From NCBI GenBank assembly GCA_016788705.1, contig JAEUSQ010000007.1, forward strand, positions 62,001 through 126,000: 64,000 nt of DNA. The letters run 5' to 3'. Position 1 is the stretch's first letter; the number at the start of each line of letters is the position of its first letter. The notes under the pieces were generated by a model. The model made no database searches and had not been told where the DNA came from. It was given only the letters and a program-made list of their open reading frames with translations. This document shows, in pieces, positions 5,277-13,449 of this stretch. This stretch comes from Bacteroidetes Order II. bacterium (GTDB lineage Bacteria > Bacteroidota > Rhodothermia > Rhodothermales > UBA2364). The translations under genes were made by a program, and so were the position numbers.

Positions 5277-6266
5277 GTGCGTGTAGGACTAGTGTATGAT
5301 TTGTTCGAGCACTTTGATTGGCAGCCGGATGATCCAGAGGACGCCGATGCCGAATTGGAGCCGGAGGGAACCGTTGCTGCCCTCGAAGCGGCATTCAGGA
5401 TACTGGGGCATGAAGTCATACGAATCGGCCCTGTACGGCATTTTCTTGGACAAATGTCTTCTTTGCGTTTGGACGTGGCGATGAGTATTGCCGAAATTGG
5501 ACGTACCCGGAATCGCGAAGCCTATGCGCCCGTGTTGTTTGAACTGGCCGGCATTCCTCATCTTGGCTCGGATGCTCTCACACTTTCGCTTTCGGTAGAT
5601 AAGGTCTGGACAAAAGAATTGGTGGCATTGGCAGAGGTGCCCTGCCCACCACACTGGGTAGTCCGTTATGGCACTGATAAATTGCCAGATATTTTAGCGG
5701 AGGCTTTTCCGCTTTTTGTTAAACCACGATATGAAGGTACGGCAAAAGGGATTTTACCCTCTTCAAAGGTTTTTAATACCGTGCAATTGCGTACTGAAGT
5801 GGATCGGATTCACACGCTTTATCGTCAAGATGCGTTGATAGAGCCATTTATTTCCGGTGCTGAGTTTACTGTTGCGGTTGTAGGTAATCACCCCGCCAAG
5901 GCACTTCCGGTACTCCAGCGGGCGGTTGAGAAAGAAACTGGTATTGGGCTACACGTTCTGGAACGAAAAGGTGTTCCTCAAACCAATTGGGCGTATCAAC
6001 TTCCAGGCCTCCTCACACCAGAGTTGGAACAAAGATTGCAGGACTTGGCCATCCGAGCATACGAAACAATAGAGGCTAAAGACTTTGCACGGGTGGATTT
6101 TCGGGTGGACCATACCGGAAAATCTTGGTTTCTGGAAGTGAATACGTTGCCCACGTTTGCGCCGGATGGTTCTTTTGCCATTCTTGCGGAACTGATGGGT
6201 CTGTCATACGAAACGTGGCTGGCCGAGGTACTATTAGCGGGGCTTCAACGACTTGGGCTGTCCTGA
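5277..6266 (+). CDS. ATP-grasp protein related to D-alanine-D-alanine ligase
   Basis: The 329-residue protein starts at GTG (MRVGLVYDLFEHF). The N-terminal third is a Rossmann-like preATP-grasp domain. The ATP-grasp part shows PLFVKPRYEGTAKGI (ATP-binding lysine), EPFISGAEFTVAVVG, and the Mg-binding end ARVDFRVD-WFLEVNTLPTFAPDGSF, close to the EVNTLPG-T-S motif of Ddl ligases. The usual Ddl N-terminal GGxSxE pattern is missing, so I call it Ddl-related rather than Ddl. It joins a carboxylate to an amine with ATP; substrates are unknown. Its closeness to ilvA suggests co-transcription. Confidence 0.8.
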   Translation: MRVGLVYDLFEHFDWQPDDPEDADAELEPEGTVAALEAAFRILGHEVIRIGPVRHFLGQMSSLRLDVAMSIAEIGRTRNREAYAPVLFELAGIPHLGSDALTLSLSVDKVWTKELVALAEVPCPPHWVVRYGTDKLPDILAEAFPLFVKPRYEGTAKGILPSSKVFNTVQLRTEVDRIHTLYRQDALIEPFISGAEFTVAVVGNHPAKALPVLQRAVEKETGIGLHVLERKGVPQTNWAYQLPGLLTPELEQRLQDLAIRAYETIEAKDFARVDFRVDHTGKSWFLEVNTLPTFAPDGSFAILAELMGLSYETWLAEVLLAGLQRLGLS

Positions 6267-6302
6267 ATAAATGGCTGTTTTAATCCTTTAATTCATACAC
6301 TG

Positions 6303-6974
6303 ATGTCACATTATGCCTTGATTACAGGCGCTGCTGGCGCCTTGGGAACGGTAGTGAGCCAAGTTTTTGCCGCACATGGCTGGGAACTGTTCTTGTTTGA
6401 TGTTTCGGATGAGCGGCTCAAAACCAATTTCCCGATGGCACACACCCAGTCGGTTGACCTTACCAATTTTGCCGCAGTACAAGCGGCTGTTTCGGCTTTA
6501 CCACACCCACCGGATGCCGTTCTCAATCTTGCAGGCGGCTTTTCGATGCAAATAGCGGAAGAGGCCACACCAGAGGATGTGCAATATTTAATGGCGATAA
6601 ATTTCCACACCCTTTTTAATACGGTTACGGCGGTGCTTCCATATATGCTGGAACGAAAGTCCGGTTTCATTGCGGGGGTATCGGCGGGTGCGGGCCTGCA
6701 TGGTGGGGCCGGAATGGCCCTCTATAGTGCCTCGAAAGCTGCTGTATGGCTTTATTTGCGTTCGCTTGCCCAAGAGTTGAAACCGTCTGGGATTCGGGTA
6801 AGTACGATTTTTCCGATGGGGGCCATAGATACACCCGGTAACCGTGTGGCCATGCCCCGAACAGACCCCAAAACATGGATAGACCCGCACCGAATCGCCG
6901 AGACCCTACATTTCTTGGCGACCAGTGATTCCCGTGGACACATTCAGGAGGTTCAAATTGAGGTGACGGGCTAA
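6303..6974 (+). CDS. Short-chain dehydrogenase/reductase (SDR)
   Basis: At 223 residues it is a classical SDR. The NAD(P)-binding TGAAGALGTVV motif is at residues 8-18, NLAGG stands in the place of the NNAG motif, and the catalytic tetrad is represented by the GVSAGAG serine and YSASKAA (Tyr-x-x-x-Lys). The length and the GLHGGAGMALYSASK stretch resemble the dihydropteridine-reductase-like side of the family. It oxidises or reduces a small alcohol or ketone; substrate unknown. It is convergent with the di-heme gene, with 15 bases between. Confidence 0.88.
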   Translation: MSHYALITGAAGALGTVVSQVFAAHGWELFLFDVSDERLKTNFPMAHTQSVDLTNFAAVQAAVSALPHPPDAVLNLAGGFSMQIAEEATPEDVQYLMAINFHTLFNTVTAVLPYMLERKSGFIAGVSAGAGLHGGAGMALYSASKAAVWLYLRSLAQELKPSGIRVSTIFPMGAIDTPGNRVAMPRTDPKTWIDPHRIAETLHFLATSDSRGHIQEVQIEVTG

Positions 6975-6989
6975 CCCTCCGTGGGTGTC

Positions 6990-8363
6990 CTATAAAGAAT
7001 TTAGGAATTTAAGGATCAGATCCCGTTCTTTTTTATGGAGTTGCTTATACCGCATAACCGTTGCTTCGGCCTCACCTCCATGCCAAAGAATCGCTTCCTG
7101 AAGGTTTCGCGCACGTCCATCATGCAAAAAATGGGTATGACCACTCACCACTTGCGTAAGTCCGATTCCCCACAGTGGCGGCGTTCGCCATTCGCGTCCG
7201 GTGGCCAAGAAATCCGGGCGATGATCGGCCAGATCTTCCCCCATGTCGTGCAACAATAGGTCTGTATAGGGCCGTATTTTTTGATTGGCAAGAAACGCAA
7301 ACGGTGCTTGGCGAGCAGTGGTAAAACTTGATTTATGACAGTGCTCGCATCCGACCTTGAAAAACAAACGGCGCCCATTTTGAATCTCGGAATCTTCTTG
7401 GTTTCTTGCAGAAGGAACTGCGAGAGACTGGGTGTAATAGGTGGTCAAATAAAGGATCCGTTCATTTATTTCCGGATCATCAGCACGACCATCATGCTGG
7501 GGCTGGTCCGAGAACGACTCGGTACGGTACAACGGGGAAGTAATGCCCATATCATCGCGGTATGCGGCAGCATTTTGTTGCCGGAGTGTGGGCTGGTTGG
7601 CCTTCCAACCAAATCGTCCGAGCATGGATTGTCCATTTTCTATACTCCAAACATAATTGGGGCGTCCTGAGATACCGTCTTTATCAATATCTTTTTCATC
7701 CGCATTCCGCAGAATATCGGCTTCCGAAATAGCTTCTAACAACCCTAAACCAATGATGGGCGGTGCAATTCTGGGAGATATTCGAACATGCGAAGGCATC
7801 AGTGCATAGGGTTGGGTAAGGGTGTAAGAAGGTTTCCGCAAGCGGTAGGTTTCTCCATCCGGGAACTGACCTACGATTTCGGTAAATCCAATTTGTACGT
7901 TACCTTCGCGAACGTTCCCGAAAACAGATTTTGTCTGTAATTGGCCACCAAACCCTGGTACTTCTCTCGGTTCACCCACAGGGCCTGTTCCGTCCAAACT
8001 TAATCGAAACAATAGCCCGCCTAGGTCCTCGCCTGTTGGGAATGCTGCACGCCCGTTTTTGTTGTGGCACGATGAGCAGGCATTTTGGTTATAAATAGGC
8101 CCCAGGCCGCTATTCACCGTAGCGGGAGCCGTCACAAAAATGGACTCGAAGGCCACATCTGACAAACGGTGTTCCTCCACTTCTGCCGGATTTAGGTTGC
8201 CTGCGGGCAATTGGAAAGCATTGGAGAATACCGCATCTGCAGACGTGAGCCCCCCTAAATTGGCCCAATCACTTGCCGTCCCTTCGGGGGAGAGGAAGTC
8301 GCATCCCATCCAGCCAGCGAGTACCAAAAGGGTTGGAAGCTTTTTAATCAATCGCCACATCAT
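6990..8363 (-). CDS. Di-heme oxidoreductase-like lipoprotein (DUF1111 family)
   Basis: This 457-residue protein has a lipoprotein signal (Cys21 in GWMGCDF) and two CxxCH heme c sites, CSSCH at 96-100 and CEHCH around residue 340. It also has the C-terminal TPPLWGIGLTQVVSGHTHFLHDGRARN block of DUF1111 proteins (gluconate-inhibited thiol-oxidoreductase-like in old annotations). It is probably a periplasmic electron carrier or redox enzyme. It is the last gene of the leftward operon with porin, imelysin and heme oxygenase. In other bacteria DUF1111 and imelysin genes sit together and respond to iron, which fits here. Confidence 0.88.
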   Translation of the reverse strand: MMWRLIKKLPTLLVLAGWMGCDFLSPEGTASDWANLGGLTSADAVFSNAFQLPAGNLNPAEVEEHRLSDVAFESIFVTAPATVNSGLGPIYNQNACSSCHNKNGRAAFPTGEDLGGLLFRLSLDGTGPVGEPREVPGFGGQLQTKSVFGNVREGNVQIGFTEIVGQFPDGETYRLRKPSYTLTQPYALMPSHVRISPRIAPPIIGLGLLEAISEADILRNADEKDIDKDGISGRPNYVWSIENGQSMLGRFGWKANQPTLRQQNAAAYRDDMGITSPLYRTESFSDQPQHDGRADDPEINERILYLTTYYTQSLAVPSARNQEDSEIQNGRRLFFKVGCEHCHKSSFTTARQAPFAFLANQKIRPYTDLLLHDMGEDLADHRPDFLATGREWRTPPLWGIGLTQVVSGHTHFLHDGRARNLQEAILWHGGEAEATVMRYKQLHKKERDLILKFLNSL

Positions 8364-8427
8364 TTTGGATATCCTTTATAATGCGTATTAAATGGGCTGT
8401 CGTACTCATGTGAAAAGTGTGTTAAGG

Positions 8428-9024
8428 TCATACAGGGCGCGTGTTACCATGGTTTGCTTCTTTCTGCGGTTCTGTAATCCCCAAAAATGCACTCAGGTCT
8501 TGCATGATTCGTATAGTCCATTCAAATGCAACCTTAGCCTCCTCGCCTAAATCTGGTGTGAGCAAGGCGCGTATTTGGCCGCGAAGGGCTTCTGGTTGCG
8601 CAAACTGATAAAACTTTCCGGAACCAGGGACACGCTTGGCGATAATCTGGCCACCAAATAAATCGCCCATATGACGACAATATACGTGTGCACGAATCAG
8701 GTGCCTCCTGTGGTCATCGCTCATTAACTGCATCAAATAGTGGTGATACGCCAGCGTTGCGGGCAAAAAGATAAAGGCTTCTTGTTGATCCTCGGCCAGT
8801 TCAACGAAATCGTGGTAGATATGGCTACTCCGGTCTAATCCGGATAATTGTTGCATAAAACCAACTTCTCTTGCACCCGTTTCGATGGCGCTATAAACCA
8901 AGGCCATCTGATACAAATATTGTGCATATTGCTGTGGCGTAATTTTGCCGCTCACCAAGAGGCGCGAAAAAACAGTCCGTTCAGCGGCTCGATGCAGGTC
9001 ATGGGTTATTTCTTTGAGGGTCAT
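8428..9024 (-). CDS. Biliverdin-producing heme oxygenase
   Basis: The 198-residue all-helical protein matches bacterial heme oxygenases in length. The proximal heme ligand is very likely His11 in DLHRAAERTVF (family pattern L-H-x-x-A-E). The distal helix with its glycine kink is HMGDLFGGQIIAKRV. It opens heme to biliverdin, CO and free iron in the cytoplasm, needing an electron donor not seen nearby. It starts 17 bases after the imelysin stop and is clearly co-transcribed. The context makes iron recovery from heme the likely role. Confidence 0.92.
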   Translation of the reverse strand: MTLKEITHDLHRAAERTVFSRLLVSGKITPQQYAQYLYQMALVYSAIETGAREVGFMQQLSGLDRSSHIYHDFVELAEDQQEAFIFLPATLAYHHYLMQLMSDDHRRHLIRAHVYCRHMGDLFGGQIIAKRVPGSGKFYQFAQPEALRGQIRALLTPDLGEEAKVAFEWTIRIMQDLSAFLGITEPQKEANHGNTRPV

Positions 9025-9041
9025 CGGGGTTGTGTCAAGCG

Positions 9042-10091
9042 TTAGAAGGTGTCAAACAAGGGTTTAAGGGCGGCCTCTAAGGTCAGTTGAAGATCGCGAA
9101 CCTTGGTTTGGGCAAGTTGTACGGCACTTTTCTGCTGAAAGATAGCAGTGGTGAATGATCCTGGAATGGCCTCGATTGCGGCAATGGCCTCGGCGATTTG
9201 TTGTTTGATTTTAGCATCTAATGCTGCATCACGGGTTTTTACCAAATCGGATAAACTGATACCGGCAGCTACATTGTTCAAACCACCATTATAGATATGG
9301 GATACGCTCCGGATATTGTCTGCAAAGTCTGCTTTAGAATTGGCGCTAAACCGACTCTCTTCCAGTGTTACATCGGCATTCGTAAGAGGGTCATTTATTT
9401 TTCCATTGGCCACTTCATCGGTAATCGTAATTAGACCATCAATAAATTCTTGCAAGGCCGATTTTTGCGAGAGGTAAACCGTATTGCCATTTTTTCCCGC
9501 TTCCCGGACGGTTTGACCGAAGTTTTCTCCGGCTGGTTGCCAAGCATGGTATAATTGGGCGGTTGCTCCTTTTAAACTTTCGGCGCAAGCACGTAGGTAT
9601 TCAAACTGGCGGTTATTAAAATCACTAATGGCCTTGTTTCCAGAGGTACCAAATAGCAAAAATTCGATCGTATGAAACCCTTTTAAGGTGCCTTCCAAGC
9701 CGTCAATATAGGATTTGGTTAATGTATTTGGGCTGGCTAATACAGCATTAAGGTCCACTTCGTTCACGGGCCAAGAATCAATCGAGGGGTCAATTCCTTG
9801 TTGATCTACGGGGCCAAATAAAAAGCCTTCTGATTGCTCCCAAGGACGTCTGGCTTCTCGCCATGCACTCCGTGCTACTTCGAGGGCTGCAATCGTCCGG
9901 TTGTTTTCGAGTGCAGTGAGCGCTGCGACCAAAGTTGCTGTTTTGTCATCCAGATCTTTGTACGTTCGGATAATGACGTTGTTGACCGTGTTTTCCAAGA
10001 CCGCAGTATAGTCTTTTTGATCGTCTAAGGTGGTGTCGTCACAAGCAGTAAATAAGCCCAGAACAATGAAAAGTAACAATGTTTTTTTCAT
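9042..10091 (-). CDS. Imelysin-family iron-associated lipoprotein
   Basis: The protein is 349 residues with a lipoprotein signal (Cys17 in LFTACDD). It carries the GxHxxE motif of imelysin / EfeO-M75-like proteins as GFHTIEF at 138-144 and is otherwise helical. Imelysin proteins are surface or periplasmic, lack proven protease activity despite the old name, and take part in iron or heme uptake. It lies 9 bases after the porin stop and 17 bases before heme oxygenase, in a tight operon. Iron binding by the His-Glu motif is family knowledge and not shown here. Confidence 0.9.
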   Translation of the reverse strand: MKKTLLLFIVLGLFTACDDTTLDDQKDYTAVLENTVNNVIIRTYKDLDDKTATLVAALTALENNRTIAALEVARSAWREARRPWEQSEGFLFGPVDQQGIDPSIDSWPVNEVDLNAVLASPNTLTKSYIDGLEGTLKGFHTIEFLLFGTSGNKAISDFNNRQFEYLRACAESLKGATAQLYHAWQPAGENFGQTVREAGKNGNTVYLSQKSALQEFIDGLITITDEVANGKINDPLTNADVTLEESRFSANSKADFADNIRSVSHIYNGGLNNVAAGISLSDLVKTRDAALDAKIKQQIAEAIAAIEAIPGSFTTAIFQQKSAVQLAQTKVRDLQLTLEAALKPLFDTF

Positions 10092-10100
10092 GAGGTGTTT

Positions 10101-11321
10101 TTAGTTAAGGTGGAGACCGAAGCCCATCGAAAAGGTGTTTTGATACCGTTGCGTGGGAATGCCCAGTTTTTGGCGTGCAAATTGGGCTTTGAAAACAAGC
10201 CATGGGTGGGGGATTAGGTTCAGTCCCATCGTCCAAGTACTACGCTCCCATCTTGGGTTATTGAACACACTCCCCTGTGTGGCAAAGTGCGTGTCTATGT
10301 AGTCGTATCGTCCAAATACAGATAATTTGTCTTTCGGTAGGGTAGGAATAAGTTGGTCTGGACGAAGGGCAAGTTCGGCGCTGGCGCCAAGGGCTTGTTT
10401 TCCAACGGGGGTGCGTTTTACATTCAGGTTATTAGATAAATTGCGATTGGCGTTGCTGACTTGTTCTGAATTCTGTAATTGGCCCAACAAGCCAATGGCC
10501 TGAAACATCAGGGGCTTGGTATCCATAACCAGATGGGCTTCTAATAAGGTAAGGTAGGCATCCACTTGAAGGTCTGGTTTTGGACGGTTATTCCGGGTAT
10601 TGCCGATATATCCGGCGATGCCCACAAATTGATGCTTATCCCACCGGTAGTCTATCCGAGCCACGCCAGCCCAGTCGTTTGCATTTACGGACTCGAAGCG
10701 CTTTTGATTGCCACGTTTGATAAAATTTGCAGCGTTAAAGGCGGAGCCATCAAGCCCGTTAACCAAACCCGCTTGAACCTCCCATTTTTTTCTCAGATGT
10801 GCTTTCGCAACCACGCCATATTCACTCCAGTGCGTCGGTAAAAGGGTGTTTTCCATCTCTGAAAGATGTGTGGTGCGGTATTCGGTGGGTTCGTCGAAGA
10901 AGGTCATGAGGCCAAAAGGTACTTTCACCCTTCCAAATTGCAAGTTGAATGCGGGATTAGGGGAAAAGCGTAGATGAAATTGTTCGAACCAAATTTCACC
11001 CCCTTTTTCTACTTCATATTCAAACTCCCCAAACTCCTCCAAAGGATCAAATTCCAACGTAACACCTGTGCCGCCATGTTCTATCTCAAGTTCGGTGTGT
11101 AGAGTCCAGTTGGGATCTGCACGGAAAGAGGCTTCCAAAACCGCCCGCTCAAATTGAATGTCATTGCGTTTATTGGGTAAAATTTGCCAGTTGTACACAT
11201 TGTAGTGCATAACCCCATAGGCAGATGCGGTAAATCGGTCTTTTATCCGGTTTCCGCTTTCTTGGGCTAAGGCTACTTGGGTGAGCACGGTCAATACGAA
11301 AAACAATTTGGCAATTCTCAT
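10101..11321 (-). CDS. Outer-membrane porin, phosphate-selective porin O/P-like
   Basis: This 406-residue protein has a signal peptide (cut after ALAQ near residue 19) and then alternating amphipathic strands expected of a 16-strand beta-barrel. Family-like segments include FERAVLEASFRADPNWTLH, LRFSPNPAFNLQFGRVKVPFG and the final FSMGFGLHLN with a terminal aromatic pattern. Such proteins are passive channels in the outer membrane. As first gene of the iron/heme operon it may admit an iron or heme compound, but this is inference from position. Paired inverted repeats stand directly upstream. Confidence 0.83.
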   Translation of the reverse strand: MRIAKLFFVLTVLTQVALAQESGNRIKDRFTASAYGVMHYNVYNWQILPNKRNDIQFERAVLEASFRADPNWTLHTELEIEHGGTGVTLEFDPLEEFGEFEYEVEKGGEIWFEQFHLRFSPNPAFNLQFGRVKVPFGLMTFFDEPTEYRTTHLSEMENTLLPTHWSEYGVVAKAHLRKKWEVQAGLVNGLDGSAFNAANFIKRGNQKRFESVNANDWAGVARIDYRWDKHQFVGIAGYIGNTRNNRPKPDLQVDAYLTLLEAHLVMDTKPLMFQAIGLLGQLQNSEQVSNANRNLSNNLNVKRTPVGKQALGASAELALRPDQLIPTLPKDKLSVFGRYDYIDTHFATQGSVFNNPRWERSTWTMGLNLIPHPWLVFKAQFARQKLGIPTQRYQNTFSMGFGLHLN

Positions 11322-11329
11322 ATGTTTAT

Positions 11330-11386
11330 TTAGACTAATTCTAATTTAGAATTTCAATCTAATTCTTCTTGCGCACTATGTGCAAG
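11330..11386 (-). promoter_or_regulatory. Tandem inverted repeats upstream of the iron/heme operon (possible Fur-type operator)
   Basis: Two TTAGA/TCTAA inverted repeats lie side by side: 11330-11344 (5-base centre) and 11346-11362 (7-base centre). A third inverted repeat, CTTGCGCA-CTA-TGTGCAAG at 11368-11386, follows with one G-T pair. They sit 9-65 bases upstream of the porin start, where an operator would be. Iron control through Fur is expected for imelysin/heme-oxygenase operons, but the exact box of this organism is not known to me. Confidence 0.45.
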
Positions 11387-11545
11387 TTTTTCATTTGAAG
11401 GTTAGGTCAAAAGAAACAGCATAGGGAAATGCCGTCGGTTGCTTTTGGGCAAGATTACCCACCCAAACACCATAAAGCAGGGTGTTTTTTGGTGGGGAGA
11501 ATGAGGGTGGAGGGGTAAGCAAAAGGAGACGTATAACGAAATGGC

Positions 11546-12070
11546 CTATGTCTCACTTTCATCACGCCATTGCCGAAGCCGCCACGGCAGGGTTGTGCTT
11601 CTACGAGAGAGCAGGAAATTTATCCGCCCGCTCCCTCGGAAAACCTCCCCAGCTCCTAACGAAATGGTCAGGTTGAAGGAACGGATAATTTGTGCTGTTT
11701 TATGGTCGGGAGCCACCTCTTGTACCACAATTTGGTTCCAATCTAACCGAATCAGATCTGCACGCTGAAACATTTGGCGCGTGGACTCAATTTCTTGTGC
11801 ATATCCCCATTGGCGGTCTATTCCGGCCTCGAAATCTCGGTAAATAAATGTAAACGAAGAGTCTATGAGGGGTTGATAAATGGACATATCCCGCAATTCA
11901 TATCCATTTTTGAAATTAGTGAAAAAGCCATCTATGGTCGTTGGGTCGCCTAATAGGTGCTGATATGGGTTCCCTTCTTCGAGGGCTGGCGCAAACGGAT
12001 TACATCCGCCAAAAACAAAAGCGGTTGTGAATGATCCTAAGATTAAAATGGAACAGTAGGTACGGTTCAT
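11546..12070 (-). CDS. Hypothetical lipoprotein, NTF2/SnoaL-like
   Basis: This 174-residue protein has a lipoprotein signal ending FGGC near residue 23. The mature part looks like a single alpha+beta cone (NTF2-like): a helix with FFTNFKNGYELRDMSIYQPLID, then strands containing FTFIYRD, ADLIRLDWNQIVVQEV and PWRLRQWRDE. It resembles its upstream neighbour in layout, so the two are probably old tandem duplicates. No catalytic residues are obvious. It follows the neighbour after 7 bases, so they form one operon with phzF upstream. Function unknown. Confidence 0.68.
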   Translation of the reverse strand: MNRTYCSILILGSFTTAFVFGGCNPFAPALEEGNPYQHLLGDPTTIDGFFTNFKNGYELRDMSIYQPLIDSSFTFIYRDFEAGIDRQWGYAQEIESTRQMFQRADLIRLDWNQIVVQEVAPDHKTAQIIRSFNLTISLGAGEVFRGSGRINFLLSRRSTTLPWRLRQWRDESET

Positions 12071-12077
12071 AGCGGTA

Positions 12078-12671
12078 TTATTTTACAAAAGCGGCTTTTA
12101 GATCGCTCCATGAAGGCGTACTTCCTGTTCCCTGATCGGCCCAACGTTCTATCTGCCAGAGTCCGTTTGTCTGTTGTACCATGTTCCAGACCAATTTTCC
12201 GTTTGCCTCTATGGGAATGCCCTCGTTTGATCGGCTGTGTTGCATACGCAGGATATAGGTAGCTTGGAAGGAGATATGTCGGTTGTCCAGAATCACTTGC
12301 GAGGTCTCGATCAGCTGGAGGTTGTGGCCCGTAAATGGGGCTGAGGCGGTTGCTAAGCGGGCAAAATAAGTTTCTTCTTCGTTTGAACCCCATTTGGTCC
12401 AGAGTACAGGATCGCGGTTTTCAGCAGTAATGCTCGGTTGGAAAACAAGGTCAACCGCCAACGATTTGGCATAATGTTGTACATTTCGTTCGGCAATGGC
12501 ATTTTTTAGGTTTTCCACTACACGGTCTGGGGTATCCGGCTGAAGCCATGAACCCCCAGTCCCAATAGGACTTTCCGGTATTCGTGGCGCAAAAATGTCG
12601 CACCCAGCCCATATGAGTGCCATGAACAAGGCCACCATTACCCCATAATCGCGTGAAATCTTGCTATTCAT
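12078..12671 (-). CDS. Hypothetical lipoprotein, NTF2/SnoaL-like
   Basis: I start at the second ATG (MNSKISRDYGV), giving 197 residues. The lipoprotein signal ends at WAGCDIFAP. The mature protein has a DRVVENLKNAIAERNVQHYAKSL helix, a central FARLATASAPF segment, and strands ending in WNMVQQTNGLWQIERWAD, the pattern of NTF2-like proteins. Its start overlaps the end of phzF by 8 bases, so translation may be coupled. The function is not evident. The pair with the next gene suggests an exported ligand-binding or assembly role at the inner or outer membrane. Confidence 0.68.
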   Translation of the reverse strand: MNSKISRDYGVMVALFMALIWAGCDIFAPRIPESPIGTGGSWLQPDTPDRVVENLKNAIAERNVQHYAKSLAVDLVFQPSITAENRDPVLWTKWGSNEEETYFARLATASAPFTGHNLQLIETSQVILDNRHISFQATYILRMQHSRSNEGIPIEANGKLVWNMVQQTNGLWQIERWADQGTGSTPSWSDLKAAFVK

Positions 12672-13449
12672 ATACAAACGTTCCCGTTAAATACGTTTTG
12701 GCATATCCAGACATGCGCACCCGATCGCCCTCTAAGGTACACCAAAGGGTACCGCTCCGTTTAGAAAGCTGTTGTGCCATAAAGTTGGTTTTCCCCAACT
12801 TGTTTGCCCAGAAAGGAACCAAGACACAATGCGCTGATCCCGTAACCGGATCTTCATTGATGCCAGCCTTTGGCGCAAAAAACCGCGAAACAAAATCAAC
12901 ATCATTTCCCGGCGCTGTTACGATGATGCCCAGTGCCTCCACCGAGGCCAAAGCGGTAAAATCGGGGGAGAGCGCACGGATACAGGCTTCATCGGGTGCC
13001 TCTGCCAAAAGGTAATGTTTGGCCATACCCGTAAAAATCGGTTGTATGCCCAAACCATCAATTAGGGCTTGGGTCGGGCGAATTTTGGACAGGGCTTCTG
13101 CGGGCAAGTTTAGTTCTATGCGGCCTTCTTTTTGGGTAACTGTTAAAGGGCCGCTGGCTGAATGGAAAACAAGTTCTTGGTTTGTGATGCCCAAATGATC
13201 AAACAAGACGTGTGCGGTCGCAAGGGTGGCGTGGCCACAAAGAGGAACCTCTAATTCGGGGGTGAACCAACGCAAGTGGTAGGTTCCATCCGGATTTTGT
13301 ACAAAAAAGGCGGTCTCGGCCAAGTTGTTCTCGGCGGCAATGGCCAACATTACGGTATCGGGAAGCCATTTGGATAAAGGCACGACGGCAGCCGGATTGC
13401 CACCAAAAAGTTGGTTGCTAAACGCATCTACTTGGTATATCGGAAGCAT
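12664..13449 (-). CDS. PhzF family isomerase
   Basis: The 261-residue protein has the PhzF/YddE two-lobed diaminopimelate-epimerase-like fold. Signatures are YQVDAFSNQLFGGNPAAVVPL at the start, the catalytic Glu in NNLAETAFFV, LRWFTPELEVPLCGHATLA, and the C-terminal FAPKAGINEDPVTGSAHC. PhzF itself isomerises a phenazine precursor, but most genomes carry such a gene without phenazine synthesis, and no phz genes are seen here. The true substrate is unknown. It heads a leftward operon with the two NTF2-like lipoproteins. Confidence 0.9.
   Translation of the reverse strand: MLPIYQVDAFSNQLFGGNPAAVVPLSKWLPDTVMLAIAAENNLAETAFFVQNPDGTYHLRWFTPELEVPLCGHATLATAHVLFDHLGITNQELVFHSASGPLTVTQKEGRIELNLPAEALSKIRPTQALIDGLGIQPIFTGMAKHYLLAEAPDEACIRALSPDFTALASVEALGIIVTAPGNDVDFVSRFFAPKAGINEDPVTGSAHCVLVPFWANKLGKTNFMAQQLSKRSGTLWCTLEGDRVRMSGYAKTYLTGTFVYE

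Follow-up and report, generated by a model that had tools for sequence, protein, structure and literature searches.

Most of what is known about high-affinity iron uptake at the outer membrane concerns TonB receptors. The described systems closest to the locus analysed here are operons that pair an imelysin, a protein of the Peptidase_M75 (M75) family, with a di-heme DUF1111 protein (DHOR). Such operons include PA4370-PA4373 of P. aeruginosa, which is iron-responsive (PMC3143127), and the Leptospira LruB imelysin/di-haem operon, which is induced by the chelator dipyridyl (PMC13066512); the Leptospira imelysin-DUF1111 genes are described as both iron- and peroxide-responsive (PMC13066512, PMC7567364, PMC8638851). 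In B. thetaiotaomicron, iron limitation is reported to raise the expression of a porin/thiol-oxidoreductase/M75 locus 62.7- to 323.7-fold (PMC10434189), and EfeM, which consists of the M75 domain only, has been reported to bind metals (PMC9174327). Here we report on a four-gene operon, encoding a porin, an imelysin, a heme oxygenase (HO) and a DHOR, that lies at positions 6990-11386 of a 64,000-nt stretch of DNA, referred to as the window, from a Bacteroidetes Order II. bacterium (genome G000; contig JAEUSQ010000007.1, positions 62,001 to 126,000).

The window operon shares with the PA4370-PA4373 and LruB operons a GxHxxE-type imelysin and a di-heme DUF1111 protein but, unlike them, has a leading dedicated porin, a single imelysin and an inserted HO. 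The B. thetaiotaomicron locus, BT2473-BT2482, resembles it in gene content, its porin BT2477 being a candidate member of the window family, and differs in including CcsA and fimbrillin genes; the term heme oxygenase does not appear in PMC10434189. EfeUOB and EfeUOB-M likewise set an M75-domain protein beside a heme protein in iron uptake (EfeB being labelled DyP-type in PMC3577903 and DUF1111 in PMC3143127), but the window cluster has a porin instead of the EfeU permease; neither that permease nor a cupredoxin domain was found among the cluster genes, and the NCBIfam EfeO model scored 19.5 bits against a cut-off of 270. The imelysin-DUF1111 pairing and, in part, the iron-responsive module are thus known, and what is new is the added HO; the limited literature searched on imelysin and heme oxygenase (including PMC9478572 and PMC13192842) contained no report of an HO within an imelysin operon.

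Our preferred reading, to which we assign a probability of about 0.52, is that these genes form an operon for iron starvation. Its basis would be a three-gene module of the outer membrane that occurs in many bacteria, to which cytosolic release of iron from heme by HO has been added. The porin would pass iron ions or small iron complexes inward through the outer membrane, and the imelysin and DHOR, both predicted to be lipoproteins, would retain the iron at the membrane and alter its redox state; FbpABC, which has the same operator-like box, would then probably carry iron across the inner membrane. In this genus HO, under the same control, would most likely contribute iron from heme, either synthesized by the cell itself or brought in through a separate system.

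A first-pass annotation of the window had named the four genes as a tight operon, and this description holds: porin, imelysin, HO and DHOR follow one another in that order, all on the minus strand, with intergenic gaps of 9, 17 and 64 nt (Table 1). The imelysin-DUF1111 pair that it recognized, known from PMC3143127, is equally secure; the imelysin matches PF09375 at 228.6 bits (cut-off 23.5) and carries GFHTIE, its GxHxxE motif, at residue 138, and DHOR matches PF06537 at 338.2 bits (cut-off 22) and has two CxxCH sites, CSSCH at 96 and CEHCH at 339. The AlphaFold model of DHOR, built from 13 sequences, has a mean predicted local distance difference test (pLDDT) score of 66 and retrieved nothing with Foldseek at E ≤ 0.001, and a PDB sequence search returned no useful relative of this protein (best E 0.44). 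HO matches PF01126 at 66 bits (cut-off 23), and its conserved proximal His and Gly-rich distal-helix segment (GDLFGG), which we take to be the catalytic residues, align with those of solved heme oxygenases; a PHROGs search placed it in just an unnamed family. The imelysin and DHOR have lipoprotein-like starts and HO starts without a signal, which would place HO in the cytosol and the other three proteins in the envelope.

The HO encoded in the window thus belongs to the same Pfam family as the HmuO/HO-1 type heme oxygenases, with the catalytic segments kept, but its setting differs from theirs in that the gene is inserted in a porin-imelysin module; a scan of nine genes (5277-13449), which did not extend to the remainder of the genome, found neither a heme receptor nor an inner-membrane heme ABC transporter. 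The closest relative of this HO among those compared (29% identity) is encoded at L041 1504-2028 (L and G numbers designate loci and genomes, respectively). This protein and a similar one at L050 1363-1881 both match PF01126, yet by eye they lack the distal Gly-Asp pair, and for that reason they may not be active heme oxygenases.

Table 1. Features of the window operon, and regions of the operator-like box found elsewhere in the genus.
Feature	Position	Strand	Basis
Outer-membrane porin, family linked to imelysin	10101..11321	minus	AlphaFold barrel; Foldseek to porins
Imelysin (Peptidase_M75), predicted lipoprotein, GxHxxE present	9042..10091	minus	Pfam; lipobox-like start read in sequence
Heme oxygenase (HO), conserved His and GDLFGG segments, without visible signal peptide	8428..9024	minus	Pfam; alignment
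Di-heme DUF1111/DHOR, putative peroxidase, predicted lipoprotein	6990..8363	minus	Pfam; lipobox-like start read in sequence
Operator-like palindrome (5-5-5 dyad), 8 nt ahead of porin start codon	11330..11344	minus	Dyad pattern; same in G106
Cytochrome/malic enzyme box regions	L119 1412-1721; L247 2109-2440; L249 1888-2221

The order of the four genes is not unique to the window genome, if narrowly so. All four recur in a congener, G106, where the gaps measure 13, 19 and 75 nt and the flanking genes on both sides are the same as well, and since this order recurs in a second species, the arrangement is not due to chance. Between G000 and G106, the ratio of nonsynonymous to synonymous substitution (dN/dS) is 0.09 for the porin, 0.07 for the imelysin, 0.12 for HO and 0.10 for DHOR, values that indicate purifying selection on all four genes. 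No match to the imelysin, HO, DHOR or porin was obtained in G107, the third genome examined from the genus.

The wider distribution separates HO from its three neighbours. Genome contigs were searched with a porin alignment alone, and the best 80 of 405 relatives were kept; neighbours in these 80 loci were found by profile (hidden Markov model) searches of stop-to-stop frames. The alignment had been built from porins picked beside imelysins, and three of the 80 loci are members of it, while the HO profile was made from 28 sequences, window HO included. Imelysin was found at 80 of the 80 loci and DHOR at 76, with HO at none (0/80); this distribution makes porin-imelysin-DHOR a module of wide occurrence, to which HO was added locally. 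In 78 of the 80, no more than 300 nt separate the porin from the start of the imelysin frame; the two exceptions are L195, where the order is imelysin-DHOR-porin, and L226, with a porin-imelysin gap of 727 nt. Among the DHOR-less loci, L161, L168 and L205 end soon past the imelysin, and L196 has 4.3 kb more and still no DHOR match. Record titles place the module in Bacteroidota, Poribacteria, Latescibacteria, Calditrichaeota, Gemmatimonadetes, several Gammaproteobacteria, Myxococcales, Bdellovibrionales and others; Tenacibaculum aiptasiae and Moheibacter sediminis are two named species that carry it. Porin matches also occur in 81 of 394 genomes sampled across the phylum, and all 12 above 300 bits adjoin an imelysin by eye; eight of these 12 are in the query alignment, so that the independent count is four of four (G046, G423, G426 and G463). 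Weaker porin matches lie near an imelysin in G308, G436, G119 and G231, and most weak matches are not near one.

The first-pass annotation had called for a survey of imelysin neighbourhoods for HO, and such co-occurrence does exist, at a few loci. Across the order (114 genomes), HO is found in 2, imelysin in 17 and DHOR in 20 genomes; in the phylum sample, HO is found in 43 of 394 genomes (42 above the cut-off) and imelysin in 89. Fourteen genomes of that sample hold both HO and imelysin when the two tables are compared by eye, counting G118, whose HO match is below the cut-off, and in four of the 14 (G000, G106, G360 and G368) the two genes lie no more than 10 kb apart on one contig. HO is about 5 kb from the imelysin in G368, and in G360, a genome of another family, it lies directly upstream of an imelysin whose cluster also encodes a DUF4856 protein, an HTTM protein and a TonB receptor. 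Because this HO stands beside an imelysin in a different cluster and in another family, the HO-imelysin pairing probably arose twice. Three genomes of one other family have HO (L079 7732-8334, L080 13320-13928 and L081 8581-9204) close to a common upstream gene, which is MaoC-like in L081; the L079 HO sits within a DUF4856-imelysin-HTTM-TonB receptor cluster.

These distributions also bear on a more ambitious claim of the same annotation, namely that the operon provides a complete path for heme, which would enter by the porin, be bound at the surface by the imelysin, be handled by DHOR, be carried inside and there be opened by HO. In favour of such a path, HO is flanked in two species by genes of the module, with a single operator-like box ahead of them all. 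The G360 cluster, with its HTTM protein and TonB receptor, points the same way, and FepA/FepB of S. aureus, a pair of the EfeO/EfeB type, are reported to drive heme-iron use in E. coli (PMC3577903). On the other side, heme is by general knowledge large for passage through a 16-strand porin, none of the 80 other module loci has HO, and no inner-membrane heme transporter was found among the cluster genes; two imelysins assayed showed no specific heme binding (PMC3143127). With a module that does without HO, a cluster that lacks the inner-membrane step and a box that ties the operon to a transporter of ferric iron, the evidence does not support a complete heme path, and since porin-imelysin-DHOR usually occurs without HO, we regard it as unlikely that the module is a dedicated heme pathway.

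A different account of the same facts is that HO shares nothing with the outer-membrane genes except the starvation signal, and recycles the cell's own heme in iron shortage with no pathway link to them. HO has no signal peptide and its neighbours are envelope proteins, it is rare in the order and absent from the other module loci, and, among the 76 loci in which the imelysin-DHOR gap is measurable, this gap exceeds 300 nt, apart from the HO operon, solely in L224, where a transposase is inserted; all of this is in line with that account. Against it stands the place of HO within the operon, which has been kept in two diverged species; this fits co-regulation but does not tell the account apart from the preferred reading. 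We consider this account unlikely, and prefer the iron-starvation operon in which HO supplements the iron supply. The use of HO as a supplier of phytochrome chromophore was also considered and is unlikely, as a PHY domain was found in none of the three genus genomes.

The porin, which with its acidic loop is the more interesting lead, was recognized by fold. Its sole Pfam match, to BBP2, is below the cut-off (E 0.006), PF07396 (phosphate-selective porin O/P) did not match, and a PDB sequence search gave no useful relative. The AlphaFold model is a barrel with a mean pLDDT of 91, in which low values are found mainly at residues 81-110 (blocks 57-69) and in the first 30 residues, a likely signal peptide, and which appears to have 16 strands when the loop hairpin is set aside in the count. 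Foldseek matched the model to many porins in the PDB, with chitoporin first, OprP third and OprO eighth and with 14% identity to the OprP/OprO folds; the protein is therefore a porin, as first annotated, but "O/P-type" is a loose label for it. Within residues 77-113, 13 positions are acidic in at least 90% of the rows of a 53-sequence alignment; at 12 of these 13 the residue is glutamate in at least 45 of the 53 rows, and 51 rows keep His82. Judging from how short turns and long loops alternate in the model, this acidic loop should probably face outside, and we propose that it perhaps captures iron. Porin paralogues adjoin an FbpA-like ferric-binding gene in three genomes (L256 5780-8065, L258 4865-7158 and L261 3978-6342); these are weaker matches with a much shorter acidic loop, and PF07396 does match the distant one in L256 (E 1.1e-5).

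A bolder form of the preferred reading, which we put forward tentatively and at well under even odds, is that the module is a device for the intake of iron ions that can work without a TonB receptor of its own: the Glu-rich loop would collect iron, the two lipoproteins would bind and convert it, FbpABC would import it, and HO would extend the supply to heme iron in the window genus. If this is true, the imelysins, whose role is unsettled, would gain a partner and a testable task in a widely kept module that joins an acidic-loop porin to an imelysin and a di-heme protein, apparently in step with a ferric transporter. The insertion of HO is an example of such a module being extended. As the first-pass annotation stated, no TonB receptor is present within the window interval 6990-11386.

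Iron control of the operon is supported indirectly, because an operator-like box is common to the operon and to fbpABC, the operon for a ferric-iron transporter. The box ahead of the porin has the same 15 bases and the same 8-nt spacing in G000 and G106, and the same dyad lies ahead of fbpABC in all three genus genomes, 27 nt before it in G000, 33 nt in G106 and 25 nt in G107; FbpA, the first product of the G000 fbpABC operon, matches ferric-binding proteins at E 1.1e-93. Box sites also lie ahead of an FbpA-like gene followed by a porin paralogue in G433 and ahead of another porin paralogue in G118. The G000 genome encodes one DtxR-type repressor with an FeoA domain (L282 2042-2710), beside a metal ABC transporter of which one permease frame ends in a matching metal-binding domain. 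A shorter operator core was tried and was uninformative (16 sites versus 43 in a reversed control). In G107, which is without the module, a TonB receptor lies beside fbpABC with a box ahead of each (L248 2568-8836), an arrangement that may reflect a swap of the outer-membrane route.

Several observations weigh against the iron-starvation reading. The box is not enriched genome-wide, with 6 sites versus 4 in the reversed control for G000, 6 versus 6 for G106 and 5 versus 11 for G107, and with 2-6 versus 0-21 in five other genomes. In all three genus genomes, a box lies between the genes for a multi-heme cytochrome and a malic enzyme, neither of them an uptake gene, and because of this position the box regulon may reach into respiration; the remaining three sites in G000 fall within genes or at their ends, and these genes show no link to iron uptake. 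In the wider set, a looser form of the box was found in just 6 of 77 upstream regions, with 0.58 expected by shuffling (three of the 80 loci, having less than 150 nt upstream, were left out of this count). TonB-receptor-like frames, identified with profiles grown from two queries, occur in at least 11 of the 80 module loci, and in L157, L166, L178, L183 and L193 a receptor frame follows close behind DHOR on the same strand; the module is thus not always receptor-free. Finally, PMC3577903 connects M75 proteins with the use of heme iron as well.

Some of these facts would suit a module that is not for uptake at all, in which the porin, imelysin and di-heme protein guard the envelope against peroxide or pass electrons outward in the manner of a porin-cytochrome complex. 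The two CxxCH sites of DHOR, the peroxide induction reported for a Leptospira imelysin operon (PMC7567364) and the conserved box site before the multi-heme cytochrome gene are compatible with such a role; the box shared with fbpABC, the porin paralogues beside FbpA and the induction of related loci by iron limitation (PMC10434189, PMC13066512) argue for uptake instead, and we consider a non-uptake role very unlikely.

Among 47 imelysin loci, the porin was found around 16 and an HTTM protein around 12, with no overlap between the two groups. This second type of imelysin cluster is represented by L079 (2351-7708), L080, L084, L086 and L087 as well as by L013-L018, L020-L023, L077 and L078; a search on both terms found no paper linking HTTM with imelysin. 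The L079 HTTM protein has a vitamin K-dependent gamma-carboxylase lumenal domain, and each of the five larger loci (L079, L080, L084, L086 and L087) contains a TonB-receptor frame. Promoter-like sites numbered 3 versus 6.3 in shuffles and terminator-like sites 7 versus 5.7. Upstream of the operon, at 11546-12677 of the window, two same-strand open reading frames with lipoprotein-like starts and no Pfam match are kept in G106.

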